From positions 1-26,760 of IMG/VR virus record IMGVR_UViG_3300020197_000131: 26,760 nucleotides of DNA. One strand, written 5' to 3'. Shown here in pieces: positions 2,922-26,760 of this stretch (positions within the stretch are counted from its first letter, which is position 1; the number at the start of each line of letters is the position of its first letter). The DNA comes from a virus. The translations under genes were made by a program, and so were the position numbers. The notes under the pieces are model-generated. The model was given only the letters and a program-made list of their open reading frames with translations, searched no databases and was not told the DNA's origin.

Positions 2922-2929
2922 CCCCAAAC

Positions 2930-2943: not shown

Positions 2944-2946
2944 CAA

Positions 2947-3294: not shown

Positions 3295-3349
3295 CCCTCC
3301 CGGAGCAGCCCGAGCAGGCAGGTGCTCTAGGAGCGCCCGGAGGGCCGCG

Positions 3350-3378: not shown

Positions 3379-3413
3379 TTGCACATACCCAAACCGTAGA
3401 ACAAGCGGTAGCC

Positions 3414-3734: not shown

Positions 3735-3737
3735 ATA

Positions 3738-3751
3738 TAACTCCGGAGTGA
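3738..3751. promoter_or_regulatory. Repeated dyad, TAACTCCGGAGTGA, with embedded RBS
   Basis: Same 14-mer as at 20134 and 21386, and the reverse complement of the copy at 22814. GGAG is 6 bases before the ATG at 3755, and the 20 bases 3738-3757 (through the ATG) are the same as at 21386-21405. Confidence 0.75.
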
Positions 3752-3754
3752 CAA

Positions 3755-4000: not shown

Positions 4001-4010
4001 GAGGGGCGAT

Positions 4011-4220: not shown

Positions 4221-4237
4221 CCCCGGAGAAAAGAGCG

Positions 4238-4600: not shown

Positions 4601-4612
4601 CAGGAGAGGAAC

Positions 4613-4834: not shown

Positions 4835-5082
4835 TCTACCTGACGATGCTGGTGAGTGACCTGCCGGTGGTTCCGCTGGAGACTGATGCCCAGCGGATTT
4901 ACGTGCGGATCGAGCAGGGGGTGCCGGACGGGTTCCGGGACTTCACCGTCGAGCAGATGGTGACTTACTTCTCCAGCGTGCGGGAGGTGATCGAGCAGGA
5001 CCTGAACGCTATGTCCACGCCGATACCGGTGGAGCCTGCCGAGCCACAGGGTTCCGTTGTGAGCCAATCCGGCGAGCAATGA
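4831..5082 (+). CDS. Small acidic protein, last gene of the early set
   Basis: 83 residues. The start ATG overlaps the preceding stop (ATGA), so I prefer it to an upstream in-frame start at 4753. The N-terminal part is beta-like and hydrophobic (MIYLTMLVSDLPVVPL). A helical region (DFTVEQMVTYFSSVREVIEQ) and a Pro/Glu/Ser tail follow. No family is recognised. The 3' end overlaps the end of the convergent terminase gene by 74 bases, so the two transcripts must overlap antisense unless something outside my recognition stops them. Confidence 0.6.
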   Translation: MIYLTMLVSDLPVVPLETDAQRIYVRIEQGVPDGFRDFTVEQMVTYFSSVREVIEQDLNAMSTPIPVEPAEPQGSVVSQSGEQ

Positions 5083-6469: not shown

Positions 6470-6475
6470 GATTTA

Positions 6476-6489
6476 TCACTCCGAAGTGA
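6476..6489. promoter_or_regulatory. Repeated dyad, TCACTTCGGAGTGA on the minus strand
   Basis: Read leftward it spans the end of the terS gene, whose TGA stop (6478-6476) is the last three bases of the dyad, and it provides GGAG for the GTG start of terL. The same 14-mer in the opposite orientation precedes the gene at 25199. Confidence 0.75.
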
Positions 6490-7045
6490 CTACTTCCTCA
6501 AAAAACTCAAACGCGTCGGCGGTCGGGTTCGGGGCGAACTCTTCCTCCCAGTCGAAGTCGATCACATCAGGATCGCTTTCCTGAAGCACCTCCTGCTCAA
6601 TGACTTGTGCGTCGCCGTCATACCCGACGTTCGTCTCACCGATCTTGATGTTGATGGTGACCCTTCCGGCAATGTCGCCAATCACCTTCTCCTGTGCTTC
6701 GAGGCCGGAGAACTTGCCCAGCAGCTTGATCAGTTCGTTCTTGTTCGAGAAACTTTCATTGGTGCTGTGCAGCAGCTTATAGCCTTCTTCAAGCCATTCT
6801 TCGATCAGCGTTGCCGACTTGAGGCGGATACGGGTGTTGGTGTTCGTGGCTGAATGCCAGTTCTGGCGCTCGGTTTCCACAAGCTCCTTGAATCGGGGCC
6901 ACTCCTGAAGCTGGTCCCAGACCTCTTCGGTGATCTGGTATCGGGCTAGGATATCCGCGATGGGGTAGTGGTCGATTGCCACCTCACGGGCAAGCTTGAC
7001 CACGTTGATATCCCGCCCTAAGTCTAGGGGTGCGATGGCATTCAT
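6476..7045 (-). CDS. terS: Terminase small subunit, putative
   Basis: 189 residues. Residues about 10-55 look like an HTH-type DNA-binding segment (LAREVAIDHYPIADILARYQITEEVWDQL). A long helical middle (about 60-115) is typical of the oligomerisation region, and the tail is strongly acidic (DPDVIDFDWEEEF and on). This order and size suit small terminases that recognise the packaging site and hand DNA to the large subunit. Position immediately upstream of terL on the same strand is the main support. AGGTG sits upstream of the ATG, and a minus-strand promoter lies about 40 bases further up. Confidence 0.75.
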   Translation of the reverse strand: MNAIAPLDLGRDINVVKLAREVAIDHYPIADILARYQITEEVWDQLQEWPRFKELVETERQNWHSATNTNTRIRLKSATLIEEWLEEGYKLLHSTNESFSNKNELIKLLGKFSGLEAQEKVIGDIAGRVTINIKIGETNVGYDGDAQVIEQEVLQESDPDVIDFDWEEEFAPNPTADAFEFFEEVVTSE

Positions 7046-7055
7046 GGTACACCTA

Positions 7056-7084
7056 TTGACAGGTGGCTAAAATAGTGCTATCCC
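7056..7084 (+). promoter_or_regulatory. Promoter candidate for the portal/head genes
   Basis: TTGACA at 7056-7061, a 17-base spacer, and TATCCC at 7079-7084, preceded by TGC as an extended -10. The perfect -35 and extended -10 offset a weak -10 hexamer. The predicted start is about 30 bases before the portal ATG. It overlaps the divergent terS promoter region. Confidence 0.5.
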
Positions 7085-7085
7085 T

Positions 7086-7114
7086 AGTGTACCCCAATCC
7101 TGTCCACGCGTCAA
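7086..7114 (-). promoter_or_regulatory. Promoter for the terminase genes (leftward)
   Basis: On the minus strand: TTGACG (7114-7109), exactly 17 bases, then TACACT (7091-7086). Each hexamer matches the sigma70 consensus at four or more positions. It points at the terS ATG at 7045. With the rightward candidate at 7056-7084 it makes a compact divergent promoter region of only 76 bases between genes. Confidence 0.6.
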
Positions 7115-7121
7115 ATCAGGC

Positions 7122-9272
7122 ATGATCGAAGCGATCCCGACCACTGTCTCGACGCATCCAACGCGCCCCGCACTGCGCGTGATTGGAGGCACGGCCCTCT
7201 CCCAGATGTACGATGAACGGGACCGTGCCGAGGCTGAACGCAAGAAGCGCGATGCCGTCGTGAACGACCCGGTTATGACTGACCTGTCGTCATACGTCGG
7301 CACTCAATATGAAATTTTCGCTAACCACCGCACAACGAACGCTGGCTGGGCCAATAGGCTGTTATCGGCGCTTCGGACCTTCAACGGTCAGTACGATGGT
7401 GCTAAACTGGCAGCGATACGCCAGTTCGGCGGCAGTGAAGTCTACCCCCGCATAATCGCGATGAAATGTCGCGGAGCCACGTCCCTGCTCAGAGACGTGT
7501 ACCTGTCATCGGAGCGGGCTTGGGGGATTGCGCCCCCGGCTGACCCCGATGTACCGGTTGAAATCCAGCAAGCTATCCAGCAGCTTGTCATAATGGAAAT
7601 CACCAAGCTGGCACAGGCAGGCCAGCCGGTGGACCAGTCGGCGGCGCGGTCGCGAGCCAGCAACCTGTTCTTGGCGGCGCGGGAGGCCGAGAAGGTCAAC
7701 GCCAAGCGGCGGGCCAAGCTGACTGAAGAGAAGATCGAGGAAATCTTCGTGGAAGGGGGCCTGTACACCGCCCTCTCCGAGTTTCTGGTCGATCTACCGC
7801 TGTTCCCGTTCGCCTGCATCAAGGGGCCGGAAGTGCGGGTGGTCCCGCAGGTGCGGTTTATGAACGGAACCGCACAGGTGACCCAGCAGCCGAAGCTGTT
7901 CTGGTATCGGGTTTCCCCGTTCGACCTGTACTGGACGCCGGGGGCGTCAAGCATCGAGCAGGCTGACGTGATCGAGCGCGGCAGGATTACCCGCGCCGAA
8001 CTCAACGACTGTCTCGACCTTCCCGGCTACAAACAGGAGGCTGTGAGGGGTGTTCTGGATGAATACGGGGCGGGGGGCATAGCTGACGACTGGGACTACA
8101 CCGACACGGAGCGGGCGCTGTTCGAGAACCGCGAGAACCCGCGCTGGAACCGTTCGGGCATGATGAACACCATGCGGTTCACCGGGAACATCCAAGGCAA
8201 GATGCTCTTGGACTACGGCATGGACGACCCGGCCATCGTCGCGGACCCGCTTCGGGACTTCAAAGTGGAACTTTGGAAGATTGGACGCTGGGTGATCAAG
8301 TGCCAGTTGATCCCCAGCCCCCGGCAGCGGCATCCCTATTTCATAACTTCGTTCGAGAAAGTACCGGGAACGCCTGTAGGGAACGGCCTCCCGGATATCC
8401 TGTCGGACATTGAGGAAACCGCAGCAGCCACCCTGCGGGCGCTCGTCAACAACATGAGCATCGCGTCTGGTCCGCAAGTGGTCGTCATGGACGACCGGTT
8501 GGCCCCCGGCGAGAACGGTGAGCAGCTATACCCGTGGAAACGCTGGCACGTGAACAGCGACCCCGTGGGCAACAGCAACTCCCAGCCCCCGATATCGTTC
8601 TTCAACCCGCAGAGCAACGCGCAGGAGCTTCTGGGCGTCTATCAGTCGCTCAACGCAATGGCTGACGATCTGTCTGCCATCCCGAAGTACATGGCCGGGC
8701 AGGGCATGGGCAGCGGTGCTGGACGCACATCGTCTGGTCTTGCCATGCTCATGAACAACGCCGCGAAGATACTCCAGACGGTTGCGGCGAATATCGACCG
8801 GGATATCTTTGAGCAGCTACTGTACTCGCTGTTCGACATGCTGATGCTGACCGACAAGGAAGGTCTGCTGCTTGGTGACGAGAACGTTCAGGTGAAGGGT
8901 GTCAGCGTCGCCATCCAGAAGGAAACCGAGCGGGTACGCCAGCTTGAGTTCATGCAGATCACACAGAACCCGGTTGACGCCCAGATCATCGGTGTTCCGG
9001 GTCGTGCGAGCCTGCTTAGGGCGGTCAGCAGCAACATCGGACTGGACGGCGAAAACATTGTTCCCACGGCTGAAGCCATCGAGCAGCAAATGTTCGCGCA
9101 GGCTCAGCAGGCAGCGGCGGCGCAGGCCCAGACACCGGCAGCCCGTGCCGACGAAAAATCGAGGGCGCTGGACGCACAGGGGCAGGCACCGCCCAGTCCC
9201 GCGCAGCCAGCCCAGCAGCAACCACAAGCGCAACCGAGCGAGCAGCCACGTGCTGACACGGTAGGGTCATAG
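7122..9272 (+). CDS. Portal protein
   Basis: 716 residues, the size expected for a large podovirus-type portal, the dodecameric ring through which DNA enters and leaves the head. The core (about residues 60-620) has the usual order: an N-terminal helical part with VYPRIIAMKCRGATSLLRD, a central wing with LFWYRVSPFDLYWTPGASS and the basic/aromatic strands around YFITSFEKVPGTPVGNGLPDIL, and the conserved-type helix ALVNNMSIASGPQVVV. SAIPKYMAGQGMGSGAGRTSSGLAMLMN follows around 522-550. The C-terminal ~90 residues are Gln/Ala/Pro-rich and likely disordered. The start has only a weak ribosome binding site. It is the first head gene behind the divergent promoter. Confidence 0.85.
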   Translation: MIEAIPTTVSTHPTRPALRVIGGTALSQMYDERDRAEAERKKRDAVVNDPVMTDLSSYVGTQYEIFANHRTTNAGWANRLLSALRTFNGQYDGAKLAAIRQFGGSEVYPRIIAMKCRGATSLLRDVYLSSERAWGIAPPADPDVPVEIQQAIQQLVIMEITKLAQAGQPVDQSAARSRASNLFLAAREAEKVNAKRRAKLTEEKIEEIFVEGGLYTALSEFLVDLPLFPFACIKGPEVRVVPQVRFMNGTAQVTQQPKLFWYRVSPFDLYWTPGASSIEQADVIERGRITRAELNDCLDLPGYKQEAVRGVLDEYGAGGIADDWDYTDTERALFENRENPRWNRSGMMNTMRFTGNIQGKMLLDYGMDDPAIVADPLRDFKVELWKIGRWVIKCQLIPSPRQRHPYFITSFEKVPGTPVGNGLPDILSDIEETAAATLRALVNNMSIASGPQVVVMDDRLAPGENGEQLYPWKRWHVNSDPVGNSNSQPPISFFNPQSNAQELLGVYQSLNAMADDLSAIPKYMAGQGMGSGAGRTSSGLAMLMNNAAKILQTVAANIDRDIFEQLLYSLFDMLMLTDKEGLLLGDENVQVKGVSVAIQKETERVRQLEFMQITQNPVDAQIIGVPGRASLLRAVSSNIGLDGENIVPTAEAIEQQMFAQAQQAAAAQAQTPAARADEKSRALDAQGQAPPSPAQPAQQQPQAQPSEQPRADTVGS

Positions 9273-9287
9273 CAACAGGAGACAACC

Positions 9288-9455
9288 ATGCCGCTTTTGC
9301 TTGACAATGAGGACGTGGCGCACACTTTCGTCAGTTCCACGGTGCTGACTACGGTCGTGACCGTTGCCAACTACACCATCGCGGATCATGACGTTCAGGT
9401 CACCGATCTGCTGGGCCGCTCCAGCGCAACGAAGACACTGGCGATTACCGCGTAG
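9288..9455 (+). CDS. Small virion-region protein of 55 residues
   Basis: An ORF of 55 codons, beginning MPLLLDNEDVAHTF and ending SSATKTLAITA. ACAGGAGAC at 9275-9283 is a very good Shine-Dalgarno 5-8 bases before the ATG, and the gene fills the gap behind the portal. It is Thr/Val-rich and probably forms beta strands. Family not recognised. The position between portal and scaffold suggests a small head component or decoration protein, which is inference. Confidence 0.65.
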   Translation: MPLLLDNEDVAHTFVSSTVLTTVVTVANYTIADHDVQVTDLLGRSSATKTLAITA

Positions 9456-9514
9456 TGTACCCGCCGATCTACGCGGGGGAAGTTCTGAAGCAACCGGAAG
9501 AGAGGACTTTGGTC

Positions 9515-9715
9515 ATGAAGGGTAAGAGCAAGAACCGCAGTTCGCCCACGTTCGCCAAGGGCGGCGGTAATTCTATGGTTGGACAGCAGCACGCAGGCCC
9601 GCAGAAGCCGGGCACTACGGCGCACGACATCTCTGGCAGCGGCGGCAAGTGGGCGTCCGGTGGGCGCGGTTGCATGGTCGGCAAGCAGTCGGCGGCACCG
9701 GCCAAGCCCGCCTAA
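9515..9715 (+). CDS. Small basic Gly/Lys-rich protein of 66 residues
   Basis: The ATG at 9515 follows AGAGAGGAC at suitable spacing. A GTG at 9455 in the same frame would extend it by 20 residues but lacks support beyond its overlap with the preceding stop. The product is basic and Gly-rich, with two similar segments (GGNSMVGQQHAGPQKP and GGRGCMVGKQSAAPAKP), suggesting an internal duplication. No recognised domain. It may be a DNA-associated or packaged head protein given its charge and location, but this is speculative. Its stop is immediately followed by the repeated dyad. Confidence 0.6.
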   Translation: MKGKSKNRSSPTFAKGGGNSMVGQQHAGPQKPGTTAHDISGSGGKWASGGRGCMVGKQSAAPAKPA

Positions 9716-9729
9716 TCACTCTGGGGTGA
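9716..9729. promoter_or_regulatory. Repeated dyad, TCACTCTGGGGTGA, with embedded RBS
   Basis: One-base variant of the 1542/15876 version. It begins directly after the TAA of the preceding gene and supplies GGGG 5 bases before the ATG at 9732. The flanks extend the symmetry (TAA before, TAAT after). Confidence 0.7.
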
Positions 9730-9731
9730 TA

Positions 9732-10013
9732 ATGGCGGAACAGGTCAAAGCGGAAGAAAGGCTCGCGCGGTTCGTGGCGGGCCTTTCCCCCCACATGCAA
9801 GTCGAGTTGTGGAACGCTTTGCAGGGATACCACGAACAGTTCTACAACGAGTTGGTCGCAGCATCAGGTGAACAGCTTCCGAGGTCACAGGGCAAGGTGC
9901 AGGCCATTGAGGTTATCAACACGACAATCCGGCACTGCCGGGATATCGTGGAGCGTGTAGACAGAAGGCGGATGGCAAGTTCCCCGCCAAACAATGGGCA
10001 GAAAGTCATATGA
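9732..10013 (+). CDS. Small helical protein upstream of scaffold
   Basis: 93 residues from the ATG after the dyad. A longer frame opens upstream at 9579 but overlaps the preceding gene without a ribosome binding site. The sequence is helix-rich (RLARFVAGLSPHMQVELWNAL and on) with a basic C-terminus. The stop TGA overlaps the start of the scaffold gene (ATGA), indicating translational coupling with head assembly genes. Family not recognised; a head-assembly accessory role is inferred from context only. Confidence 0.65.
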   Translation: MAEQVKAEERLARFVAGLSPHMQVELWNALQGYHEQFYNELVAASGEQLPRSQGKVQAIEVINTTIRHCRDIVERVDRRRMASSPPNNGQKVI

Positions 10014-11107
10014 GTTCTGGTGGGCAGGCCCCGATTGACACGAACGTCGTCATTCCGCGTGGCGTGAAAGCTGCGTCCGAGCGTTCTGAAGCTATTCACA
10101 AGCAGGCGTACAGCACGGGTGAGGCCGCGCCTCCCCAGAACGGCGCTACGCCTCCGCCAGTGGCCGCTACGCCCCCGCCAGCGCCGTCCCCGCCAGCGCC
10201 GCCCCCGGTGGCCGCTACGCCCCCACAGCCACCGCCTGCTCCTGTACCGCCCCCGGAGACAGCGGAGGACTGGAAGCACCGTTACACGTCGTTGAAAGGT
10301 CGTTTCGACCAGCAGGCTGGCCAGCTTGCCAACGCCAACACCCGGCTGACAAGTCTCGAAACGCTCGTGGCTGGCTTGCAGGCACCCAGACAGCCAGCGC
10401 CACAGCCCGCCCCACAGCGCCGCACCAAACGTCTCACTGACGAGGATGTGAAAGAGTACGGCGAGGACTTGATCAAGGTCGTGCAGAAGGCGGCGCTGGA
10501 TGTCGTCGAGCCTGTGCTTGACCAGCGGGTGACTGGCCTGCGCACGGAAGTGCAAGGCAAGATCGACACGGTTGCTGCAAAGGCGACCAGTGCCGAGCGT
10601 GAGAGTGCCAACAGCGCCCACCAGCGTCTGCTGGACTATCTGGACAAGAACCTGAACACTTGGAGGCAGATCAACCATCATCCCAAGTTCCACACGTGGC
10701 TCTCCTTGACAGACCCACTGAGTGGTGCTATACGTAAGAACCTGTTGAACGATGCAGTCGCCAGAGGCGATGCCTCCCGAGCACTGACGTTCTACAAGGC
10801 GTTTCTAGCTGAAGAAGGTGTACCGGCCCCTGCAAACGGCAATGGTCAACTACAGCCCCCACCCACTCCCCCAGCGGGTAATGGCAACGGAACTGGAATT
10901 GACCTTGCATCGTTGGCGGCACCGGGCAGACCGGCAGCATCGGGCACAGCCCCCACGGCCCCCGACAGTGGTAGCGGTGAAATAATCACTCGCGCTCAAA
11001 TCTCTACTTTCTACGCCAACAAGAACCGTGGGATGTACTCGCCTGAAGAGGCGGCGAGGCTCGAAGCGGAAGTCTTCAAGGCAGGCAGAGAAGGGCGCGT
11101 TCGTTAA
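10010..11107 (+). CDS. Capsid scaffolding protein, putative
   Basis: 365 residues immediately before the major capsid gene. Residues 41-82 are almost pure Pro/Ala repeats. Residues 84-123 form a likely coiled coil (HRYTSLKGRFDQQAGQLANA). The central region about 185-270 carries a helical pattern seen in podovirus scaffold proteins: LNTWRQINHHPKFHTWLSL, then RGDASRALTFYKAFLAEEG. A second Pro/Gly linker precedes a short helical C-terminus (ARLEAEVFKAGREGRVR), where many scaffolds bind the coat. Order portal, scaffold, coat is the strongest support. It would direct prohead assembly and be removed before packaging. Confidence 0.75.
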   Translation: MSSGGQAPIDTNVVIPRGVKAASERSEAIHKQAYSTGEAAPPQNGATPPPVAATPPPAPSPPAPPPVAATPPQPPPAPVPPPETAEDWKHRYTSLKGRFDQQAGQLANANTRLTSLETLVAGLQAPRQPAPQPAPQRRTKRLTDEDVKEYGEDLIKVVQKAALDVVEPVLDQRVTGLRTEVQGKIDTVAAKATSAERESANSAHQRLLDYLDKNLNTWRQINHHPKFHTWLSLTDPLSGAIRKNLLNDAVARGDASRALTFYKAFLAEEGVPAPANGNGQLQPPPTPPAGNGNGTGIDLASLAAPGRPAASGTAPTAPDSGSGEIITRAQISTFYANKNRGMYSPEEAARLEAEVFKAGREGRVR

Positions 11108-11128
11108 CTCTCGGAATGGGGACTGAAA

Positions 11129-12124
11129 ATGGCCTTTGGCGTCGCAACAGGGGGTACGACCCCTCCGATTTGGCCTACCGGTTCGTCCGGTAACGGCCTC
11201 TCAGCAGCCGGGTTCATCCCGGAAATCTGGTCTGGGAAACTCATTGAAAAGTTCTACCACTCCACCGTCCTCGGCGCGATCAGCAATACCGACTACGAGG
11301 GCGAGATCAGGAACTACGGCGACAAGGTGATCATCCGCACCAAGCCGACGATCACCATCAACGACTATCTTGCAGATGGCCTGCTCGCCGTTCAGCGGCC
11401 CGCTGGCAACTTCGTGGAACTCAACATCGACAAGGCGAAATACTTCAACACGGCGCTCGACGACGTGATGGAGAAGCAGTCGGATATCAACAATCTGTCT
11501 CTCTGGGCGGACGACGCTGCGGAGCAGATGAAGATCAAGATCGACACCGACGTGCTCCTTGGAATGCTCACTGCTTGTGCGTCGGCCAACCGTGGCACAA
11601 CGGCGGGCGCAATCTCGGCGGATGTCAATCTCGGCGTCACGAGCACCCCACTTGCGGTGGTTCCTCGGTCGCCGGGGGTTGGCGAAGTCGAAATCGTGGA
11701 CGTTCTCCTTCGTCTCGGACAGGTCCTCGACGAACAGAACATCCCCGAGAGCGGCAGGTGGGCGATCCTTCCGGCGTGGGCCGGGACCATGATCAAGATG
11801 TCCGAGATGCGGCAGGTGTACCTCACTGGCGACAGTGTGACCATGCTGCGCAACGGGCGTCTCGGCATGATCGACCGCTTCACCATCTACATCAGCAACC
11901 TGCTCCCGAAGGGACCGATCACCGGCCCTCCGGCGCTGGCGGCTGGTGAGTGGGTCATCTACGCGGGGCACCCCCACGGGCTGACCTTCGCGAGCCAGAT
12001 GACCAACGTCGAGACGATGCGCTCGGAGATGTCGTTCGCGAACCTTCTTCGCGGGCTTCAGGTCTACGGGTGGAAAATTCTCGACAGCATTGCTCTCGCA
12101 CAGGCCGTCGTCACCAAGGCGTAG
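11129..12124 (+). CDS. Major capsid protein
   Basis: 331 residues. The sequence has features typical of podovirus coat proteins with an HK97-like fold: an N-terminal arm with FIPEIWSGKLIEKFYHSTVL, a strand-rich part IRNYGDKVIIRTKPTITIND, the helix WADDAAEQMKIKIDTDVLLGM, and the C-terminal domain RWAILPAWAGTMIKMSEMRQ then IYISNLLPKG and YAGHPHGLTFASQMTNVET. Codon use is strongly biased to C/G-ending codons, as expected for the most abundant virion protein. GGGGAC upstream is an acceptable ribosome binding site. It follows the scaffold gene by 21 bases. Confidence 0.85.
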   Translation: MAFGVATGGTTPPIWPTGSSGNGLSAAGFIPEIWSGKLIEKFYHSTVLGAISNTDYEGEIRNYGDKVIIRTKPTITINDYLADGLLAVQRPAGNFVELNIDKAKYFNTALDDVMEKQSDINNLSLWADDAAEQMKIKIDTDVLLGMLTACASANRGTTAGAISADVNLGVTSTPLAVVPRSPGVGEVEIVDVLLRLGQVLDEQNIPESGRWAILPAWAGTMIKMSEMRQVYLTGDSVTMLRNGRLGMIDRFTIYISNLLPKGPITGPPALAAGEWVIYAGHPHGLTFASQMTNVETMRSEMSFANLLRGLQVYGWKILDSIALAQAVVTKA

Positions 12125-12148
12125 CATCACTGACGCCTATGGGGCAGG

Positions 12149-12178
12149 GGGAGTGGTGGTTCACTCACCGGCACTCCC
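12149..12178 (+). terminator. Stem-loop after the coat gene, possible attenuator
   Basis: GGGAGTG (12149-12155) pairs with CACTCCC (12172-12178), with a shorter GTG/CAC pairing inside the loop. It lies in the 85-base gap behind the major capsid gene. No T-run follows. The arms contain the half-site words GAGTG and CACTC of the repeated dyad, so it may also be a degenerate second operator next to 12181. Confidence 0.35.
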
Positions 12179-12180
12179 TC

Positions 12181-12194
12181 TCACTCCAGAGTGA
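12181..12194. promoter_or_regulatory. Repeated dyad, TCACTCCAGAGTGA
   Basis: Reverse complement of the 1542/15876 version and identical to the intragenic copy at 18235. It lies 16 bases before the ATG at 12210, which has its own Shine-Dalgarno (GAGGGCGG), so here the dyad is not needed for ribosome binding. Confidence 0.75.
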
Positions 12195-12209
12195 TTATTC
12201 GAGGGCGGC

Positions 12210-12587
12210 ATGGCGAACGCGCTGGACACAGTTGCGGATTACGTGCAGCAGGCACGGGTGCTCCTTCAGGACACCTATGGGCCTGCTTACCGCTATGCAT
12301 CCATCGACATAGTGATGGCATTGAACCTTGGGCTGATGCGGGCGCGTCAGCTTCGAGCCGATTTGTTCATTCTCACCGATGGCGTGGTCCCGTATTTTAA
12401 TCAGGAAAATGCCTCACCTGTGCCGTTTGAAGTGATGTATCGGCAAGGGCTGCTCAACTGGATCATAGGGCAGATCGAACTCCGCGACGCTGAAGGTAGC
12501 CAAGATGACCGGGCTGCTGCCTTGCAGAACGCCTTCGTCGCCCAGCTTACTGCCGGTAATGTCGATGTGAACGCTGGAGGCGGGTAA
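12210..12587 (+). CDS. Head-tail adaptor candidate
   Basis: 125 residues, mostly helical, starting MANALDTVADYVQQARVLLQD. The pattern of a four-helix small protein directly behind the coat gene (DTYGPAYRYASIDIVMALNL and LNWIIGQIELRDAEG) matches a family of phage adaptor proteins that join portal and tail. The start follows GAGGGCGG. Its stop overlaps the next ATG by one base (TAATG). Assignment rests on position and helical pattern rather than a diagnostic motif. Confidence 0.6.
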   Translation: MANALDTVADYVQQARVLLQDTYGPAYRYASIDIVMALNLGLMRARQLRADLFILTDGVVPYFNQENASPVPFEVMYRQGLLNWIIGQIELRDAEGSQDDRAAALQNAFVAQLTAGNVDVNAGGG

Positions 12588-13201
12588 TGGACTACATCAC
12601 CCGGATCATGGCGAACGCACGTACCAGACTGACTGGAGTGGTTGACGACGCACTCCGTATGGGGCTGTTCGAGGCAGTAGACGAATTTTGCCGTGAGACA
12701 GACATATGGCAGGAAGATATTGCGTTCGACACGGTGACGTACACTCCTGATCTGGTCTACGATCTGGTCCCGACCGAAGGGACGATACTTCGGCTTATTG
12801 CGCTTAAAGTAACTGGGCAGACAGGTTCTCTGAATGGCACAATGCGCGTTCCGGGTGAGCTAAAGATAAGCTCAATGTTGAACGCTGATGTCAACGTGAC
12901 CGCTACTGTCAGTCTGTCTCCAATCGACCCGGTAGAGGTTGGTAGTGAATTTCCTGTGATTGACGCGTGGATTTGGCAGCGGCACTTTACTGCGCTGACT
13001 GACGGGTTGATTATGAAAATGGCGTCGCAAGTGGACAAGCCCTACACCAGTGGTACGCTTGTTGAGTACCATGGCAGGCGGTTCCGCAATGCGATTGGTG
13101 TGGCCCGTGCCGACAACATCAAAGCCAACTTGGCTGATGGGCAGGCGTGGCAGTTCCCTGACTTTGCCGCGCAACGTAACTCAAGCACTCAGGTAACCTG
13201 A
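12587..13201 (+). CDS. Second head-tail connector or tail accessory protein
   Basis: 204 residues. The N-terminus is helical (MDYITRIMANARTRLTGVVDDALRMGLFEAVDEFCRETDIW). A beta-rich middle (LVYDLVPTEGTILRLIALKV, and on) and a C-terminal helical part (WIWQRHFTALTDGLIMKMASQ) follow. This architecture, helical arm with an inserted beta domain, recurs in podovirus tail-tube or gatekeeper proteins placed between adaptor and fibre genes. Ribosome binding uses GGAGGCGGG at the end of the preceding gene. Start and stop overlap both neighbours by one base, so the genes 12210-14811 are probably coupled. Confidence 0.6.
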   Translation: MDYITRIMANARTRLTGVVDDALRMGLFEAVDEFCRETDIWQEDIAFDTVTYTPDLVYDLVPTEGTILRLIALKVTGQTGSLNGTMRVPGELKISSMLNADVNVTATVSLSPIDPVEVGSEFPVIDAWIWQRHFTALTDGLIMKMASQVDKPYTSGTLVEYHGRRFRNAIGVARADNIKANLADGQAWQFPDFAAQRNSSTQVT

Positions 13202-14811
13202 TGGCTCTGCAAATCACCCATTCGTTCCAAAGCCCAAAACTGGATGGGCCGGACCCGACCGTGGTCCGTCCGTCCAACTGGAACGCCAATCATACGATTG
13301 CCGGTACTGGTTTCTTTGTTGCCGGTATGGTCATCGACTGGCTTGGGCATACTACGCCCGCTGATTTTCTTGAGTGCTACGGGCAGTCAGTAGCAGCAGC
13401 TTCATACCCGACCTTGTTTCAGAACTTAGTCAAATCCGATACGGTTACCTTCACTATTTCGTCACCGGGAGTGGTGAACTGGACTAGCCACGGGTTAGTG
13501 GTCAACTCCAAGGTTAAGTTCCGGAAGAACGGTGTGGCGACTTTCCCGACTGGGATCACGGAAAACGTTGACTACTACATCATTTCAGCAGGTTTTTCAG
13601 CGTCGGCTTTTCAGATTTCCGCAACGGCGGGTGGGGCTGCGATAAACTTCACTGGCAGTCAGTCTGGTGTTTTCACCGGGGTTAACGCTCAGTACGGTGT
13701 GTCAACTGACTTGTTGACGTTCACTGTACCTGATCTGCGTGGCCGGGTGACGGCTGGGCTTGACACCATGGGTGGCTCCGCTGCCAGTCGTCTGACTAGC
13801 CCACTGAACGGTGCCGTGCTTGGCAATTCTGGTGGTGCACAGACACATACGCTGGTAGTGTCGGAATTGGCAACACACCAACACAACAACCATCCACCGA
13901 CTGCGGCTGGCAGTGCGACTACTGTAAGCGTAACAGTTGACAACGGTGGTGGGTTTACCCCGGCTGGTTCTATAAGTAGTAACGGTGGGTTTACTCCAAC
14001 CGGCACGTTGAGCAGCAACGGCGAACACACCCCGGCTGGTTCACTAAGCAGCGATGGGGCGCATACTCCGGCTGGCTCAATTGGATCGGAGGCGGCGCAT
14101 ACTCATAGCATCGACCCGCCACCGACGGCAACGTCAGCGGCAGGGGCTGCGGCGGCACACACTCACCCCATCCCTGTGCTCAGTGGTACGGCTCAGTCTG
14201 ATGGCCTTCATACCCACCCGCATACACTTTACGCTTCTTCTGATGGTTCACACTCGCATCATTTTTCAGGTGACACAAGCGACACCACTTCTGGCGGCGG
14301 CAATCTGGACCGCATTGTCCGTCTTACAAACAGCGACACAGGTGAGCAGGACAAGGTGACTTCGACTGGTGGCAGCCATACACATGACTTGGCCGGTGCC
14401 ATTTCCAATAGTGGATCACATACCCACACCGTTTCTACAGGTGCGTCCAATACCAATTCGGGTGGTAGCCTTCTCGACCATACGCACACTGTGAACATTA
14501 GTTCGTTCACGAGTGCTGCTGGCAGTTCACATACGCATACTTGGACCGGCACCGCCGTACCGGCGCACACCCACACTTTCACCGGCACCGCCGTACCAGC
14601 GCACACCCACACTTTCACTGGTGACGCTGTGTCGGCGCATAGCCATACATTCACCGGTACGCCAGTTTCAGCACACACGCACACCGCAAGTGCGTCTGGT
14701 ACTGTGACTTCAACGATGGCCGACTTCTTGAGTGATGCCGCTGGTAGTGACGGGGCGCACAATAACTTGCAGCCGACATTTATCACTCGGAAGTTAGTAT
14801 ACGTGGGGTAG
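13201..14811 (+). CDS. Tail collar-domain protein with His-rich repeats
   Basis: 536 residues. Residues about 35-75 match the phage tail collar domain (GMVIDWLGHTTPADFLECYG, then a Tyr-Pro-Thr-Leu-Phe segment). It is interrupted by a ~90-residue beta-rich insert before VPDLRGRVTAGLDTMGG. Residues about 240-300 hold four 12-13-residue repeats of the GFTPAGSISSNG type. The next ~200 residues contain a dozen HTH or HSH tripeptides, often as AHTHTFTGT. The C-terminus ends like other collar proteins (HNNLQPTF, then LVYVG). His-x-His motifs in long tail fibre tips of T4 type bind metal ions, so this may be a metal-stabilised receptor-binding tip. It lies directly before the endolysin. Confidence 0.75.
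   Translation: MALQITHSFQSPKLDGPDPTVVRPSNWNANHTIAGTGFFVAGMVIDWLGHTTPADFLECYGQSVAAASYPTLFQNLVKSDTVTFTISSPGVVNWTSHGLVVNSKVKFRKNGVATFPTGITENVDYYIISAGFSASAFQISATAGGAAINFTGSQSGVFTGVNAQYGVSTDLLTFTVPDLRGRVTAGLDTMGGSAASRLTSPLNGAVLGNSGGAQTHTLVVSELATHQHNNHPPTAAGSATTVSVTVDNGGGFTPAGSISSNGGFTPTGTLSSNGEHTPAGSLSSDGAHTPAGSIGSEAAHTHSIDPPPTATSAAGAAAAHTHPIPVLSGTAQSDGLHTHPHTLYASSDGSHSHHFSGDTSDTTSGGGNLDRIVRLTNSDTGEQDKVTSTGGSHTHDLAGAISNSGSHTHTVSTGASNTNSGGSLLDHTHTVNISSFTSAAGSSHTHTWTGTAVPAHTHTFTGTAVPAHTHTFTGDAVSAHSHTFTGTPVSAHTHTASASGTVTSTMADFLSDAAGSDGAHNNLQPTFITRKLVYVG
14783..14796. promoter_or_regulatory. Weak copy of the repeated dyad
   Basis: TCACTCGGAAGTTA, which read on the minus strand differs from TAACTCCGGAGTGA at two positions. 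It lies inside the 3' end of the collar gene, 20 bases before the endolysin ATG. It could be chance. Confidence 0.3.
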
Positions 14812-14815
14812 CTAC

Positions 14816-15508
14816 ATGAACCTGACACCGACAGATTTCCAGAACTTGCTCATGGACAACGGCTTCCCGTTGCCCAAGTTTGGCGCGGATGGACACTGGG
14901 GAACTGAGACGAGCAACGCCATACAGGCGTGGTTCCGTGCTGAAACCGATCTTCTAAACGCAAACGCTCCTGCGTTGCCAAACAGCAGCGGCATTGTTCC
15001 GGCTGACTGGATGCCGGATTGCACTATGGACCGGGTGATCATCCACTGGACAGCCGGGGCCTACGTTGCCAGTGAGAACGACCGTGAGCACTACCACATC
15101 CTCGTTGATGGCAATGGCGATCTGGTCAAGGGCAAGTACCCGATCACTGCCAACGTCTCGACTTCGGATGGCGACGGGTACGCCGCTCATACCAGAAACG
15201 CCAACACCCGGTCTATCGGCATCGCAGTTTGTGCGATGGCCGGGGCGGTTGAAAGTCCGTTCAATCCCGGTCAGTACCCAATGACGCAGGAGCAGTGGCA
15301 GACGCTGGCGCAGGTCGCCGCTGACCTCTGTCGCAGATATTTAATCCCGATAGGCCCGAGAACTGTGCTTAGCCATGGCGAGGTGCAGGGTACGCTTGGC
15401 ATAGCACAGTCAGGCAAGTGGGATGTCAACAAGCTTCCGTGGGACCCACAGGCTAACCCTATGCTGGTCAACGACTGGTTTCGCCAAGAAGTCGTTGGGA
15501 GGCTTTAG
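14816..15508 (+). CDS. N-acetylmuramoyl-L-alanine amidase (endolysin)
   Basis: 230 residues. Residues 1-45 form a peptidoglycan-binding-like segment (FQNLLMDNGFPLPKFGADGH, then a Thr-rich helix with IQAWF). The amidase_2 domain runs about 70-215. It shows the zinc ligands expected for this family: His77 in VIIHWTAG, His187 in VLSHGEV, and Asp203 in SGKWDVNKLPWDP. It cleaves the amide bond between N-acetylmuramic acid and L-alanine, for lysis at the end of infection. No signal peptide is visible, so export would need a holin, which I do not recognise here. The stop overlaps the next start (TAGTG). Confidence 0.85.
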   Translation: MNLTPTDFQNLLMDNGFPLPKFGADGHWGTETSNAIQAWFRAETDLLNANAPALPNSSGIVPADWMPDCTMDRVIIHWTAGAYVASENDREHYHILVDGNGDLVKGKYPITANVSTSDGDGYAAHTRNANTRSIGIAVCAMAGAVESPFNPGQYPMTQEQWQTLAQVAADLCRRYLIPIGPRTVLSHGEVQGTLGIAQSGKWDVNKLPWDPQANPMLVNDWFRQEVVGRL

Positions 15509-15660
15509 TGCCGAAGAAGTACGAGGAAATTCGTGACAGCCTCAAGCGTCGGGGTGCGTCCGATACTGAGGCTAAGCGGATTGCTGCTGCTACCTACAAC
15601 AAGCAGCGTAAACCGGGTCAGCGCCCTGTGACGGGCAAACACAAGAAGGAGAAACGGTAA
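15508..15660 (+). CDS. Small basic protein of 50 residues
   Basis: GTG start overlapping the endolysin stop; 50 codons ending at TAA 15658-15660. The sequence begins (V)PKKYEEIRDSLKRRGASD, has KRIAAATYNKQR in the middle and ends KHKKEKR. The K-R-x-G-x-S-D-x-x-A-x-x-I-A-A-A-x-x-N pattern is common to tiny basic proteins in phages and plasmids whose function is unsettled. Its stop overlaps the next ATG (TAATG), so it sits in a coupled run from the endolysin to 15875. Confidence 0.65.
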   Translation: MPKKYEEIRDSLKRRGASDTEAKRIAAATYNKQRKPGQRPVTGKHKKEKR

Positions 15661-15875
15661 TGGCATCGAAAGCACACAAGGTCGTTGAGCCGGCTGAGCC
15701 GGTAGGGCCAGCGAAGACGCTAGCCGAGGCCCGCGCCCAGCAGGCGGCGGAGAACGCGGCTTTCGCGGCGACGAACGCCGCGCTCATAGCCGAGGTTGAA
15801 GCTCGCGTGGACGCCGAGCCGAAACCCAGCAAGCGCACCGAAGCCGAGATGGCTCGCGGCAGCGGCAAGAAATAA
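15660..15875 (+). CDS. Small Ala/Glu-rich protein
   Basis: 71 residues, GAAGGAG at 15645-15651 upstream. Very rich in Ala, Glu and Lys, with a long predicted helix (residues about 17-50, AEARAQQAAENAAFAATNAA). Low complexity, no recognised family. Its TAA is directly followed by the repeated dyad. A role as small structural helix or virion core peptide is possible, but nothing supports a specific one. Confidence 0.6.
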   Translation: MASKAHKVVEPAEPVGPAKTLAEARAQQAAENAAFAATNAALIAEVEARVDAEPKPSKRTEAEMARGSGKK

Positions 15876-15889
15876 TCACTCTGGAGTGA
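15876..15889. promoter_or_regulatory. Repeated dyad, TCACTCTGGAGTGA, with embedded RBS
   Basis: Same 14-mer as 1542. It begins on the base after the TAA stop of the previous gene, and its GGAG is 6 bases before the ATG at 15893. Confidence 0.75.
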
Positions 15890-15892
15890 GAT

Positions 15893-16234
15893 ATGGCTGA
15901 AGTAAAACGAGTAGCGAAGACCGCCGAGGCCGGTGGAATAACCAACGTGGCTCCCGCTGATCCGGCCATTACGATCACGGAAGTCAAGCCCAAGCCGATG
16001 GTCGAAGGAATGGAAGTGGGCGACTACGTTCCCTCTGCTGAAGACTTGGCGCGGCTTGCCAAGAACAGCGCCGCTCCGTTTGCAGGGCAGGCGGAACCGC
16101 CCCCGGAAGTCCCTCATACATCCACGCTGATTGCTCCGTCTAGGGCCAAGCAGACCATGGCTGAAATGGAGCGCGGCAGGGTGATTGTGGAAGAGAGGAC
16201 CAAGCTCCGGGAAAGGCAGCTTGCTGGAGGGTAG
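15893..16234 (+). CDS. Unknown protein upstream of the hub gene
   Basis: 113 residues. The first 60 are polar with Val/Ile strands. The last 45 are a charged helix (SRAKQTMAEMERGRVIVEER and on). No family is recognised. The start uses the dyad-borne Shine-Dalgarno and the stop abuts the start of the next gene (TAGATG), so it is probably co-translated with the hub-like protein and may be a tail assembly partner. Confidence 0.6.
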   Translation: MAEVKRVAKTAEAGGITNVAPADPAITITEVKPKPMVEGMEVGDYVPSAEDLARLAKNSAAPFAGQAEPPPEVPHTSTLIAPSRAKQTMAEMERGRVIVEERTKLRERQLAGG

Positions 16235-17989
16235 ATGACCGTATGGAAGGTGCAGGGCTTTGGAGGGATGGTTCCGGCATTAGACCCACGTCTTTTGCCG
16301 GATACTGCTGCTATGTACGCGCAGAACTGCCTACTCAAACCGGGCAGTATCGGTCCATTACCAGAACCTGAAGCCTTGCACACTTTGGGGGTCGGGGCGT
16401 CGTTCGCCTACAGGCTTCCAGCTTCCTACGCTGATGCGTCCTTTCTGTACGGTAGCACGTACATGGAGTTTAATGACCCGGATATGATGGTGATCCGGGC
16501 ACCGGTCGTGGACGATCAGTATGACCGGTATTACTTCGTTTCCCCCCAAGAACCGCCAAAGTACAATACTAGGGCGCGGATCGACGCTTCCCAGCCAGCA
16601 TGGCTGCTCGGTGTTCCTGCTCCCAGTGTGGCCCCGATTGTAAACTCGTCTGGTGGCGTGTCTTCCACACTGGAAACGCGGAGTTACGTTTATACGTGGG
16701 TTACCGATTACGGTGAAGAAGGCCCACCAAGCCCCAGCACGGAGCATACCGACAAGATCGACGCTTCGCCGTGGGTGATTACCTGTGCGTTGCCTACTGC
16801 GGATGACATGGGGGTTGATCGAAACCTGACTAAGCTGCGGATTTACCGCACAGTGACAACTGCGGAAGGCAGTGCTGCGTTCTATCTTGTCACTGAACTA
16901 ACTCTCCCCACTGTAATTTTCAATGACACGCTTAGCAGTGCTGTAGTGTCGTTGAACCCGCAATTGGAAAGCACGCAGTGGGCGGGGCCACCATCAGACT
17001 TGTCAGGTTGGATACTAGCCCCGAACGGCTTCATTGTGGGCTGGCGTGGTACACAGTTTGCCGAGATATGGTTCAGCGAACCGTATCGCCCCCATGCGTG
17101 GCCTGCTGAATACACGTTGGTAGTGGAGTACCCGATTGTCGGGATGGGCATAAGCAATCAGACTATTGTTTGTTGCACAGAGGCTTACCCTGTCAGTTTG
17201 CAGGGTGTCCACCCGCATTACATGGAAGTCAACAAGCTTGTGAACCACGAGCCGTGCATGGCGCGTGGCAGCATTCTAAGTGGGCCGGAAGGTGTGTTCT
17301 ACGCTTCCCCGAACGGACTGGTGCTGGTCACCCCCGGTCTGGCCGAGAACATAACCAAAGGCATCATCGGCAAGCGGGACTGGAACGGACTGGTCAAAGT
17401 ACCAAGGTTGCGAGCAGCGCGGCTGGGTACGGCGTACTTTGCTTACGGTTCTGTCCAGATCGGTGTGTTTCAGGACGATGCTTTCCAGATTGACGCGTTT
17501 GCTACAGAAGACGTTACCGGTGCCCTCACAGGGGTTGTGATTGACCCGACTTCTGACCGGGTGTCGTTTTCTATGTTGCGGCAGGATACGCCGGTTGATA
17601 ATTGCTACAATGACCCATGGTCAGGTGAGGTAATTCTAATATCTGATGGTGAGGTGCAGTGGCTCGATATTGTTACTGAGAATGTTACCTACCAGTCATA
17701 TCTGTGGAAGTCCAAGATTTGGCAAAACTCTTATGAACGCAACGCGGCGGCGTGTAAAGTGTACTGGGACACCGCTGTTGGCTTATCCGAGAACCCAGTG
17801 GCTATGAACCCAAATCCGAACGAGATAAGGTTCTACGTCAAGGGTGGGAACTACCTTCAGGACACGCTTATTCTCACACGTCCACTGGAGGTGCCGGGCG
17901 AGTTGATAAGGCTTCCTTCTGGAGGCTTCCTTCTGGCGGGAAGTACGACTATATCAGATTTGAAATTGAAAGCACCTACCGTATTTTGA
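16235..17989 (+). CDS. Tail hub-like protein, C-terminus apparently frameshifted
   Basis: 584 residues as read. It is beta-rich, with repeated blade-like segments (SYVYTWVTDYGEEGPPSPST; WILAPNGFIVGWRGTQFAEI; GVFYASPNGLVLVTPG). This recalls the beta-propeller hub and stopper proteins of podoviruses such as P22 gp10, which close the tail after packaging. The end looks wrong. After ELIRLPSGG the frame continues into 20 unlikely residues and stops. Positions 17909-17922 and 17923-17936 are an exact 14-bp tandem duplication. With one copy removed, the reading passes through GGKYDYIRFEIESTYRILSV and ends at TAG 18031-18033, 12 bases before the next ATG. The ancestral gene therefore probably ran to 18033. 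Ribosome binding site GGAGGG. Confidence 0.8.
   Translation: MTVWKVQGFGGMVPALDPRLLPDTAAMYAQNCLLKPGSIGPLPEPEALHTLGVGASFAYRLPASYADASFLYGSTYMEFNDPDMMVIRAPVVDDQYDRYYFVSPQEPPKYNTRARIDASQPAWLLGVPAPSVAPIVNSSGGVSSTLETRSYVYTWVTDYGEEGPPSPSTEHTDKIDASPWVITCALPTADDMGVDRNLTKLRIYRTVTTAEGSAAFYLVTELTLPTVIFNDTLSSAVVSLNPQLESTQWAGPPSDLSGWILAPNGFIVGWRGTQFAEIWFSEPYRPHAWPAEYTLVVEYPIVGMGISNQTIVCCTEAYPVSLQGVHPHYMEVNKLVNHEPCMARGSILSGPEGVFYASPNGLVLVTPGLAENITKGIIGKRDWNGLVKVPRLRAARLGTAYFAYGSVQIGVFQDDAFQIDAFATEDVTGALTGVVIDPTSDRVSFSMLRQDTPVDNCYNDPWSGEVILISDGEVQWLDIVTENVTYQSYLWKSKIWQNSYERNAAACKVYWDTAVGLSENPVAMNPNPNEIRFYVKGGNYLQDTLILTRPLEVPGELIRLPSGGFLLAGSTTISDLKLKAPTVF
17909..17936 (+). repeat. Frame-breaking 14-bp tandem duplication
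   Basis: AGGCTTCCTTCTGG occurs twice with no gap. Fourteen bases shift the frame by two. Removing one unit restores a plausible C-terminus in the hub-like gene. Confidence 0.9.
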
Positions 17990-18045
17990 GTGTTCAGTTC
18001 GCTACTACGGTGAAGGAACTGGATGCTGCGTAGTAGGGAAACGTC

Positions 18046-19815
18046 ATGACACAAGACCCCAAACTAAGGGCCATTCCCTACCCGCAACCGACGCTGACCA
18101 GCATTCATGAGGCTGTGCTGGCGTTGAAGGTTAATGTTGAACAATTGGCTGGAATGCGCGGCCACGATATTGGCCGGTCAATACGGCATGAAGAATTTCA
18201 TGACGCGATTGATCCAATTCTCAGGGAGTTAATATCACTCCAGAGTGAGATTGACGGCATCGTTATCAGTCCACCAATGGCGGCGGCATCAACTACTGAA
18301 GTTCTGAATGGTGTCGAGACTAACAAGGCAGTCACCCCTGATGCACTAGCTGCACTATGGGAAAAGGGTGCTGACGTTGCCAGCGCTGCTACGATTTCGC
18401 TGGGCGAAGGTGGCTACTTCGTCATTACTGGCACCGCGACCATCACCGATATTGACTTCGCTACCCCTAAGAATGGGCGGTATGCGTGGCTGCGCTTTGC
18501 CGATGTGCTCACGCTTACACATAACGCTACCACTTTGGTTCTACCGAGCGGCGCAAATATCACCACGGCTGCTGGTGACCATGCACTTGTTGTGCAGGAT
18601 AATAGCGACAACGTATATGTGGCAGGCTACATCCGTGCCGATGGGCGGGCATTGACTGCCCCGGTTGTAGCCAGCACTACTGATGTTCTGACTGGCACCG
18701 ATGCAGTCAAGCCCGCGACCTCAGACGCACTAGCTGCACTATGGGAAAAGGGTGCTGACGTTGCCAGCGCTGCTACGATTTCGCTGGGCGAAGGTGGCTA
18801 CTTCGTCATTACTGGCACCGCGACCATCACCGATATTGACTTCGCTACCCCTAAGAATGGGCGGTATGCGTGGCTGCGCTTTGCCGATGTGCTCACGCTT
18901 ACACATAACGCTACCACTTTGGTTCTACCGAGCGGCGCAAATATCACCACGGCTGCTGGTGACCATGCACTTGTTGTGCAGGATAATAGCGACAACGTAT
19001 ATGTGGCAGGCTACATCCGTGCCGATGGGCGGGCATTGACTGCCCCGGTTGTAGCCAGCACTACTGATGTTCTGACTGGCACCGATGCAGTCAAGCCCGC
19101 GACCTCAGACGCACTGGCGGCGCTGTGGGAGAAGGGGTCGAATGTCGCGTCTGCGGGCACTGTGGCGCTCGGCGAGGGCGGGTTCTTCCACATCACCGGC
19201 ACGACGACGATCACTGACATCGACTTCGCGACGGCGAAGGACGGCCGGTTTGCGTGGGTGATTTTCGATGGCGCGTTGACGTTGACGCACAACGCAACGA
19301 CGTTGATTCTACCGGGGGGCGCGGACATCACGACTGCGGCGAACGATCGTGCTCTGTTCATTCAGGACGCCTCCGACAACGTTATTTGCTTGGTCTACGT
19401 CCCGGCAGCCGGCGTGTCGTCTGCGTGGCAAACCATCCTCGCACAGACGACCCCGACCGGCACCTATACCCCGACGCTGACGAACACGACGAACCTTGAC
19501 GCGAGCACGGCCTACACAACACCGTATGTCAGGATTGGAGATCGTGTGATCGTCTCTATTACTTGGGATGCGAACGCGACGGCGGCGGCTGGCACAGGTA
19601 CAGTCATGGGGGTAAGCTTGCCTATAGCGTCAAACTTCATCGCAACGGGTGACTGTCAAGGTGCAGGGGCGATGAACACAGCGGCGGGTTCGGCTGCATA
19701 TACTGGTGTCATAGTAGGAGCCGACGCAGCAAATAATCGTGCGACATTTACCTGGCGATCCGGGTCAACGGCCAACACAAACGGGGCCGGCATTTTCATG
19801 TATCAGGTGCTCTGA
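18046..19815 (+). CDS. Tail fibre protein with repeated modules
   Basis: 589 residues. An N-terminal attachment part (about 1-80) includes a helix (IHEAVLALKVNVEQLAG). Three ~128-residue modules follow, each opening with DALAALWEKG after an ASTT(E/D)VL(N/T)G linker typical of tail fibre repeats. The first two modules are identical even in DNA. The third is diverged. The C-terminal ~125 residues (GTYTPTLTN, then YVRIGDRVIVSITW and LPIASNF) match a widespread fibre-tip domain that ends FMYQVL here. The product is likely a trimeric receptor-binding or side fibre. AGGGAAA precedes the ATG. Its stop overlaps the next gene's ATG (TGATG). Module number may vary by recombination. Confidence 0.8.
   Translation: MTQDPKLRAIPYPQPTLTSIHEAVLALKVNVEQLAGMRGHDIGRSIRHEEFHDAIDPILRELISLQSEIDGIVISPPMAAASTTEVLNGVETNKAVTPDALAALWEKGADVASAATISLGEGGYFVITGTATITDIDFATPKNGRYAWLRFADVLTLTHNATTLVLPSGANITTAAGDHALVVQDNSDNVYVAGYIRADGRALTAPVVASTTDVLTGTDAVKPATSDALAALWEKGADVASAATISLGEGGYFVITGTATITDIDFATPKNGRYAWLRFADVLTLTHNATTLVLPSGANITTAAGDHALVVQDNSDNVYVAGYIRADGRALTAPVVASTTDVLTGTDAVKPATSDALAALWEKGSNVASAGTVALGEGGFFHITGTTTITDIDFATAKDGRFAWVIFDGALTLTHNATTLILPGGADITTAANDRALFIQDASDNVICLVYVPAAGVSSAWQTILAQTTPTGTYTPTLTNTTNLDASTAYTTPYVRIGDRVIVSITWDANATAAAGTGTVMGVSLPIASNFIATGDCQGAGAMNTAAGSAAYTGVIVGADAANNRATFTWRSGSTANTNGAGIFMYQVL
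18235..18248. promoter_or_regulatory. Repeated dyad inside the fibre gene, TCACTCCAGAGTGA
   Basis: Identical to the copy at 12181, but wholly inside a coding sequence, where it encodes part of ISLQSE. No start codon follows, so a ribosome-binding role can be excluded here. Confidence 0.65.
18343..19110 (+). repeat. Perfect tandem duplication, 2 x 384 bp
   Basis: Positions 18343-18726 and 18727-19110 appear identical base for base, 128 codons each, in frame. The third module from 19111 is similar in protein but clearly different in DNA. Confidence 0.9.
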
Positions 19816-20147
19816 TGGCCGCGCTTGCCGGGCTCCTTGATGAATGGGTTCAGCGGGAAGATGGCCGCTGGCACCGCCCAGACCATCCAGAGGATGGGGT
19901 TATCACGCTTCGCGAAGGTCTCACGTTCAACGACTACTACGCCAAACGCGCCGAGCCGGAACCTTTGCCACCGCCCGGTCCCATTCGTGCCGAACTCGAC
20001 GCGCTCAAGGCGCGGCTCGACGCTGTTGAGACGAAGGCAGAATCCTTAACCGCATCCGTCGTAGAACTCGAGGCCAAGGCGGCCGACGTCGCGCCGGAGC
20101 CGGAGGCAAAACTTGAACCAGAGCCATTAGTAATAACTCCGGAGTGA
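19815..20147 (+). CDS. Small coiled-coil protein, possible fibre partner
   Basis: 110 residues. The N-terminal half (LLDEWVQREDGRWHRPDHPE, then TFNDYYAKR) looks like a small folded module. Residues about 57-90 form a heptad-type coiled coil (IRAELDALKARLDAVETKAE). The C-terminus is Glu/Pro-rich. It overlaps the fibre gene by one base and is therefore likely coupled to it, as are many fibre chaperones or fibre-tip partners, though no chaperone motif is recognised. Its last codons (ITPE and TGA) are encoded by the repeated dyad. Confidence 0.65.
   Translation: MAALAGLLDEWVQREDGRWHRPDHPEDGVITLREGLTFNDYYAKRAEPEPLPPPGPIRAELDALKARLDAVETKAESLTASVVELEAKAADVAPEPEAKLEPEPLVITPE
20134..20147. promoter_or_regulatory. 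Repeated dyad, TAACTCCGGAGTGA, abutting a promoter
   Basis: Ends two bases before the -35 box of the promoter at 20150, a classic operator position. The nearest following ATG is 60 bases away, so it is not a ribosome binding site. The TGA stop of the preceding gene is its last three bases. Confidence 0.8.
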
Positions 20148-25198: not shown

Positions 25199-26760
25199 AT
25201 GGGGATGCGGCACAGTTTGGGTTGGGTTGAACTGCGGCACAGTTTGGGTTGGGTTGAACCCGGTCTTGAGCCTAAGACTACCAGCCCGTTTTGGGGTACG
25301 GCTGAAGCTGGCGTGCACAATGCCCTCCAGATGATGTCTGGTTTTGGCTACGCCCTGTCCAACCGGATGGGCGACGAGGGAATGCGCACGTTCTTTCAGC
25401 GGGCCAGCGAAGCTGAAGGGCGGTATTCCGAAGAGGCAATCGGTGAAACGCCTCTGTGGAACCAGCAGTACGTCAATGAACCGCTGACAATGGACAACCT
25501 CTCATGGGGGAGGTTCTGGACCAAGCAGTGGTTGAACGCGCCTACACTGGTTGGGCAAGCCGTTTTTGCGTACTTTGGTGGCATACCTGCCGCTATAGCA
25601 TACGGCGGTGCGATGACGACTGGCGAAGCCATGACGCCGATCATCGCTACGTTTGCCAACCTTACGGACGAAGAGGTGCTGTCGAACCCGGCAGCCAAGG
25701 AGTTTGTCGATCAAGGCATGGCACCGTCTGAGGTGCGGCAGGCGCTGGTCGATAAGGCAATTGGTCTGAGCGACGTGCTTTCGTTCGGTGCTGGCGCGGT
25801 CTTGGGCCGGTTTGCTCCTGAGACGCTTATCGGTCGGGCATTAGCCGGGACCGGTGCAAAGACTGGTTTAGGCAGGATTACTGGCGGTGTTTTTGGCGCT
25901 GGTGCTGGCTTCGGCGTAGAAGCAACTGAAGGTGCTGTCCCGGCTATTGCACAGAACTTGGCGTCGGAGCGGACTTACGGCGCGGTTCCTGAAACCAGCG
26001 TCGGACAGGCGATGTTCGAGGAAGGCATTCTTGGTGCTGGTCCCGGCGCAGTTGCTGGTGTTCTTTCTGGTGGCAAGGCCAACCCAAGCTGGGAGACTGT
26101 GCAGCCGGGTGCGCCTGACATTAACGAGCAGGCAGCGATCAGCGACCAAGGCTGGTTACTGTTGAACATCTTGGCGGCGCGGGAGGCCGCGGCGCGGGAG
26201 GCCACGGTCGTTCAAGAAGACGTGACCGACGCCGAGGTGACTGGGGAGACTGCTGCCCTGATCACGCCGAGACAGGCGGGACCTGTTAGTCTCGTTCCAG
26301 CCCTCCGCGCGGCAACTCGCGCTTCCAACATCAAGGGGATGGAGGGACAACTAGAACCCGACCCGATCGCGCAGAGCGTGTTGAAAGCCGAGCCGGGCGC
26401 ATTCGCGTCGATCGATAGGTTCATTCGCGACAACGGCATTACGTCCCTTAAACCGCTTTCCGGTGGCGCATCGAGCGTCATTCTGGACGCCGGTGACAAG
26501 GTCGTGCGCGTCGGCCAGGGCGAAATCCTGCCGCGGCATGCGTCTCCGCTGGTGCTCAAGCCGATCGCTACCGCCAACCACGGCGGCGTTCGCGTCGAAA
26601 TCCTCCCGAAGGTCGAGACGCGGGGCATCACTCAGCGCGACGTCGAGGCCATGCAGTCGCTTCTCGCAAAGGAGGGACTGGATTGGAGCGACGCCGGTAC
26701 GGACAATCTCGGGCGGCTACCGGATGGCTCGCTGACGATCTTGGACGGTGAGGTAAAGGC
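25199..26760 (+). CDS. Partial ejection-type protein with kinase-like segment
   Basis: Open to the right edge; 520 residues visible. The start ATG follows the dyad-borne GGAG. Residues 3-20 repeat RHSLGWVE twice. Residues about 117-140 are hydrophobic (AVFAYFGGIPAAIAYGGAM), and about 190-260 is Gly/Ala-rich with helical hydrophobic runs, as in proteins that insert into the host membrane during DNA entry. From about residue 400 the composition changes. LSGGASSVILDAGDKVVRVG (about 420-439) resembles a kinase/APH glycine loop and following strand. DWSDAGTDNLGRLPDGSLTI (495-514) resembles a catalytic loop (D..xDN) followed by LDG in place of a DFG-like motif. If real, a kinase-fold effector is fused to an ejection protein. 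The C-terminus is missing. Confidence 0.7.
   Translation, partial: MGMRHSLGWVELRHSLGWVEPGLEPKTTSPFWGTAEAGVHNALQMMSGFGYALSNRMGDEGMRTFFQRASEAEGRYSEEAIGETPLWNQQYVNEPLTMDNLSWGRFWTKQWLNAPTLVGQAVFAYFGGIPAAIAYGGAMTTGEAMTPIIATFANLTDEEVLSNPAAKEFVDQGMAPSEVRQALVDKAIGLSDVLSFGAGAVLGRFAPETLIGRALAGTGAKTGLGRITGGVFGAGAGFGVEATEGAVPAIAQNLASERTYGAVPETSVGQAMFEEGILGAGPGAVAGVLSGGKANPSWETVQPGAPDINEQAAISDQGWLLLNILAAREAAAREATVVQEDVTDAEVTGETAALITPRQAGPVSLVPALRAATRASNIKGMEGQLEPDPIAQSVLKAEPGAFASIDRFIRDNGITSLKPLSGGASSVILDAGDKVVRVGQGEILPRHASPLVLKPIATANHGGVRVEILPKVETRGITQRDVEAMQSLLAKEGLDWSDAGTDNLGRLPDGSLTILDGEVK
25206..25258 (+). repeat. Tandem repeat at the N-terminus (27-bp period)
   Basis: Copies 25206-25231 and 25233-25258 are identical over 26 bases, separated by one base, giving a 9-residue in-frame duplication. 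Confidence 0.85.
26174..26203 (+). repeat. Perfect tandem repeat, 2 x 15 bp
   Basis: GCGGCGCGGGAGGCC occurs twice in direct succession, encoding AAREA twice. In frame. Confidence 0.9.

Follow-up and report, generated by a model that had tools for sequence, protein, structure and literature searches.

Does a short tandem repeat near the 3' end of a phage tail gene mark a reversible switch, a damaged gene, or a fault in the assembled sequence? The question arises in a 26,760-bp viral contig (IMGVR_UViG_3300020197_000131, here called the window), in which the 14-bp unit AGGCTTCCTTCTGG is present twice, exact and head to tail. The second copy shifts the reading frame, and the ORF stops at 17989, 53 bases beyond that copy, instead of at 18033. 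With one unit the frame runs through GGKYDYIRFEIESTYRILSVQFATTVKELDAA to a TAG, leaving 12 bases to the next ATG (18046), versus 56 bases with two units. The doubling, the frame shift and the two gap lengths had been claimed in the original prediction, and its coordinates and arithmetic were confirmed. The features of the locus are:

16235-17989, plus strand: tail nozzle (hub) protein gene in its contig form, 584 aa, the final 21 residues off the family frame
17909-17922, plus strand: first 14-bp unit
17923-17936, plus strand: second 14-bp unit; a single unit in the otherwise identical contig IMGVR_UViG_3300020193_000180
17937-18033, plus strand: rest of the family C-terminus, in the other frame (two beta strands and a short helix), with the TAG at 18031-18033

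The doubling is not a chance event, since 100 first-order shuffles produced no exact tandem doubling with units of 12-39 bp.

Sequence profiles and a modelled structure show the predicted product to be a podoviral tail nozzle/hub protein with the fold of GP4 (8jov), T7 gp12 and P22 gp10; the earlier label "tail hub-like" was therefore a fair guess. A sequence search with the one-unit protein hits PDB 8jov, which is one chain of the GP4 portal-tail complex. When 34 relatives are combined in a profile, the match to this chain covers its full length and takes in the C-terminus (E 8.7e-204). Modelling of the one-unit protein with AlphaFold2 on an alignment of 34 sequences gave a mean pLDDT of 86.2; this model supersedes a poor one from a shallow alignment (mean pLDDT 41.6). 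The nozzle fold extends along the whole modelled chain. The best solved match is 8jov (Z 33.0, 460 residues, rmsd 3.0): residues 2-594 of the model align to 2-577 of chain A, the Ralstonia phage GP4 nozzle ("virion-associated phage protein"), with ~23% identity over the structural alignment. 8jov contains no duplication; its entry comprises six chains, and nozzles of this type are expected in six copies below the portal/adaptor of the virion. The nozzle-hub chains of T7 gp12 and P22 gp10 share the fold (Z ~16-19) at only ~10% identity, T7 gp12 having longer insertions. The gene also matches PHROG 511, the internal virion/virion-associated protein of Bcep22-like podoviruses (E 1.5e-94, residues 1-562), and the homologue from Rhizobium phage RHph_TM3_14A is 42% identical to it. 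A Pfam search with the nozzle protein returned no family, and megablast against phage records returned no near relative.

Comparison with this family shows that the working gene has one 14-bp unit and encodes a protein of ~594 aa. The family tail, RLPxG...E...V..I..A.T..EL, is carried by the one-unit sequence only. Tails of this type occur in three phage relatives (RHph_TM3_14A and two IMG/VR contigs) and in almost every complete relative from 43 bacterial-genome loci; the few relatives that do not have it apparently carry broken or cut-off frames. In a profile of 36 relatives, the alignment of the one-unit protein extends to position 535 of 536 (492.7 bits), whereas that of the two-unit protein breaks off at the repeat, after position 505 (468.2 bits). 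The lost end includes the nearly invariant E590, which at least 90% of the relatives share. It is predicted to form two strands and a short helix (block pLDDT 85-93), and it aligns with the terminal part of the solved GP4 nozzle. In this contig the second unit exchanges the final predicted strands of the fold and its C-terminal helix for 21 unrelated residues. The PHROG 511 homologues examined keep the full C-terminus, unlike the two-unit ORF of the contig. The original prediction had judged the two-unit C-terminus unlikely and named homologues ending as at the 17989 stop as evidence to the contrary; no such tail was found among the three phage relatives and 43 bacterial-genome loci. It is highly improbable that the phage really makes the two-unit protein and that its shorter C-terminus is functional: the 584-aa ORF still spans the propeller-like body of the fold, but its final 21 residues match no family member and the relatives have the one-unit tail. 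In the relatives, moreover, a few bases at most separate the nozzle stop from the start of the next gene. This is the layout that one unit gives here, in line with the earlier view that the one-unit stop suits a compact genome.

An independent assembly of the same phage bears directly on the second unit. The sister contig (3300020193_000180, 19,877 bp) from Lake Tanganyika matches window positions 196-20108 and contains one 14-bp unit and an intact 594-aa frame. Its sample belongs to a set of 24 Lake Tanganyika metagenomes, for which 2x150 Illumina reads were assembled with metaSPAdes (PMC8245535). Wrongful collapse of the repeat in the sister contig is unlikely because 2x150 reads easily span a 14- or 28-base array. 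The near-identity of the two sequences suggests that the window is likely from the same lake. Over ~19.9 kb they differ at three places only, by three indels and one SNP. Besides the 14-bp unit, the differences are:

832-885, no strand: exact tandem doubling of 27 bp in non-coding DNA; single copy in the sister contig
9446-9447, no strand: CGATT doubled and one base changed in the sister contig

Divergence driven by point mutation gives the reverse, more SNPs than indels, and the balance seen here would be unusual for naturally diverged sequences. As a control, two contigs of one related phage differ by 2 SNPs and no indels over 17.56 kb. In the small ORF at 9288-9455, the CGATT doubling and base change of the sister contig shift the frame and alter the end of the ORF. 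Because the sister contig itself has this doubling, discrepancies of the indel type are present in both assemblies.

Exact tandem doublings are also unusually frequent in the window. Four with units of 12-99 bp occur in its 26.8 kb. By contrast, 114 kb of related phage DNA has none; this total is made up of 94.6 kb of loci from related phages (units 10-99 bp), whose independent length is less than the sum because they partly overlap, and of the 19.9-kb sister contig. Three were found in 218 kb of prophage-bearing genome loci. Only the doubling at 17909 had been listed in the original prediction. In addition to the doublings at 17909 and 832, the window contains:

25206-25259, no strand: exact tandem doubling of 27 bp, in frame near the start of the ORF at 25199, beyond the coverage of the sister contig
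26174-26203: exact doubling of 15 bp

The doubling at 25206-25259 encodes RHSLGWVEL RHSLGWVEP and possibly has the same origin as the 14-bp doubling; the stretch is in no viral contig, and a search for relatives of the ORF at 25199 found none.

Since an otherwise identical contig lacks the 14-bp doubling, the doubling most likely stems from faulty assembly or from a damaging mutation rather than from a switch. Judging from these sequence comparisons, the second unit is probably an assembly or consensus artefact, although the division of weight between artefact and mutation is a matter of judgement. The second unit would then be absent from the phage population and would have been added while the contig was built. 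One possible route is the joining of two contig ends with a 14-base overlap that was left unmerged; another is a chimeric read where coverage was thin. The 27-bp exact doubling at 832 would have the same kind of origin. A failed overlap merge as the exact type of artefact is a conjecture, and a literature search for papers naming such an artefact gave no direct match.

Real tandem duplications do arise in phages, which counts against an artefact, and a single duplication event leaves exact doublings. A recent duplication that inactivates or weakens the nozzle gene, present in a defective genome or in a minor variant taken as the consensus, is thus the second reading to be weighed. The two-unit sequence forms a fairly stable predicted hairpin (z about -2), and since a hairpin formed from the 14-bp array could promote a real template switch, a real duplication retains some plausibility. 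Both contigs agree even on the 384-bp repeat of the next gene, which indicates that neither assembly is grossly poor. Yet the duplication is missing from the otherwise identical sister contig, the differences comprise three indels and a lone SNP, several doublings occur within one contig, and a phage without the C-terminal strands of its nozzle is not expected as the majority form. On balance a real inactivating duplication is unlikely, though it carries appreciable weight.

The third option of the original prediction, a reversible phase-variation switch acting by slippage, by which the nozzle protein would be turned on and off or given a different C-terminus, has in its favor that databases hold both the one-unit and the two-unit version in otherwise identical DNA. 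Each form was seen once, in separate assemblies. Several observations stand against a switch: i) the array has two units only, with no microhomology beyond the unit; ii) the relatives do not keep the repeat tract, their frames read straight through, and the related phage loci contain no tandem doubling; iii) when 2.9 million viral contigs, a set that may leave out records near the window's own, were scanned for a pattern allowing either form, the only match was the one-unit sister contig; and iv) the altered end belongs to the nozzle fold, so that a structural element is lost. Rescue by -1 ribosomal frameshifting was considered and rejected, as the overlap has no canonical X XXY YYZ heptamer; the only candidates in it are GGG and TTT triplets, which are weak. 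When slippage occurs between short repeats, additional matching sequence usually remains at the flanks. The doublings in the window match over exactly the unit length, with no extra flanking homology, and this counts weakly against slippage, the cases being few and such boundaries arising fairly often by chance. A switch is therefore barely credible, and together with a functional variant it takes a very small share of the probability. It is very doubtful that both forms truly coexist in the lake population, with a fraction of genomes making a nozzle whose C-terminus is altered. Among the three options first offered, assembly error is thus favored, mutation comes next, and the slippage switch is unsupported.

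The original observation was correct, and what it describes is an ordinary nozzle gene spoiled in one contig, not a candidate switch. Seen in a single contig, a structural gene of a phage can in this way wrongly appear to be a pseudogene or to contain a "switch"; comparing the contig with an independently assembled one of the same phage reveals the error. For annotation, the ORF at 16235-17989 should be taken as a truncated version of a normal nozzle gene; the remaining exact doublings of the contig are also suspect.

Other repeats were noted in the window. A 16-bp palindrome resembling ATCACTCCGGAGTGAT occurs in 11 copies where 0.05 are expected:

1541, 3737, 6475, 9715, 12180, 15875, 18234, 20133, 21385, 22813 and 25180: copies of the 16-bp palindrome

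About seven copies lie directly upstream of a start codon, the right arm holding the ribosome-binding-site GGAG, and the sister contig retains seven; the more distant relatives checked have none. Two of three copies fold as a hairpin, and the palindrome may be a regulatory hairpin or operator. The next gene, which is fibre-like, contains at 18343-19382 two to three copies of the 384-bp unit, two of them 98% alike; this repeat region has the same length in the sister contig. A long stretch with no convincing gene, at 540-1720, carries dispersed repeats, namely a 40-nt family at 596, 805 and 977 and a 31-nt pair at 1133 and 1469.
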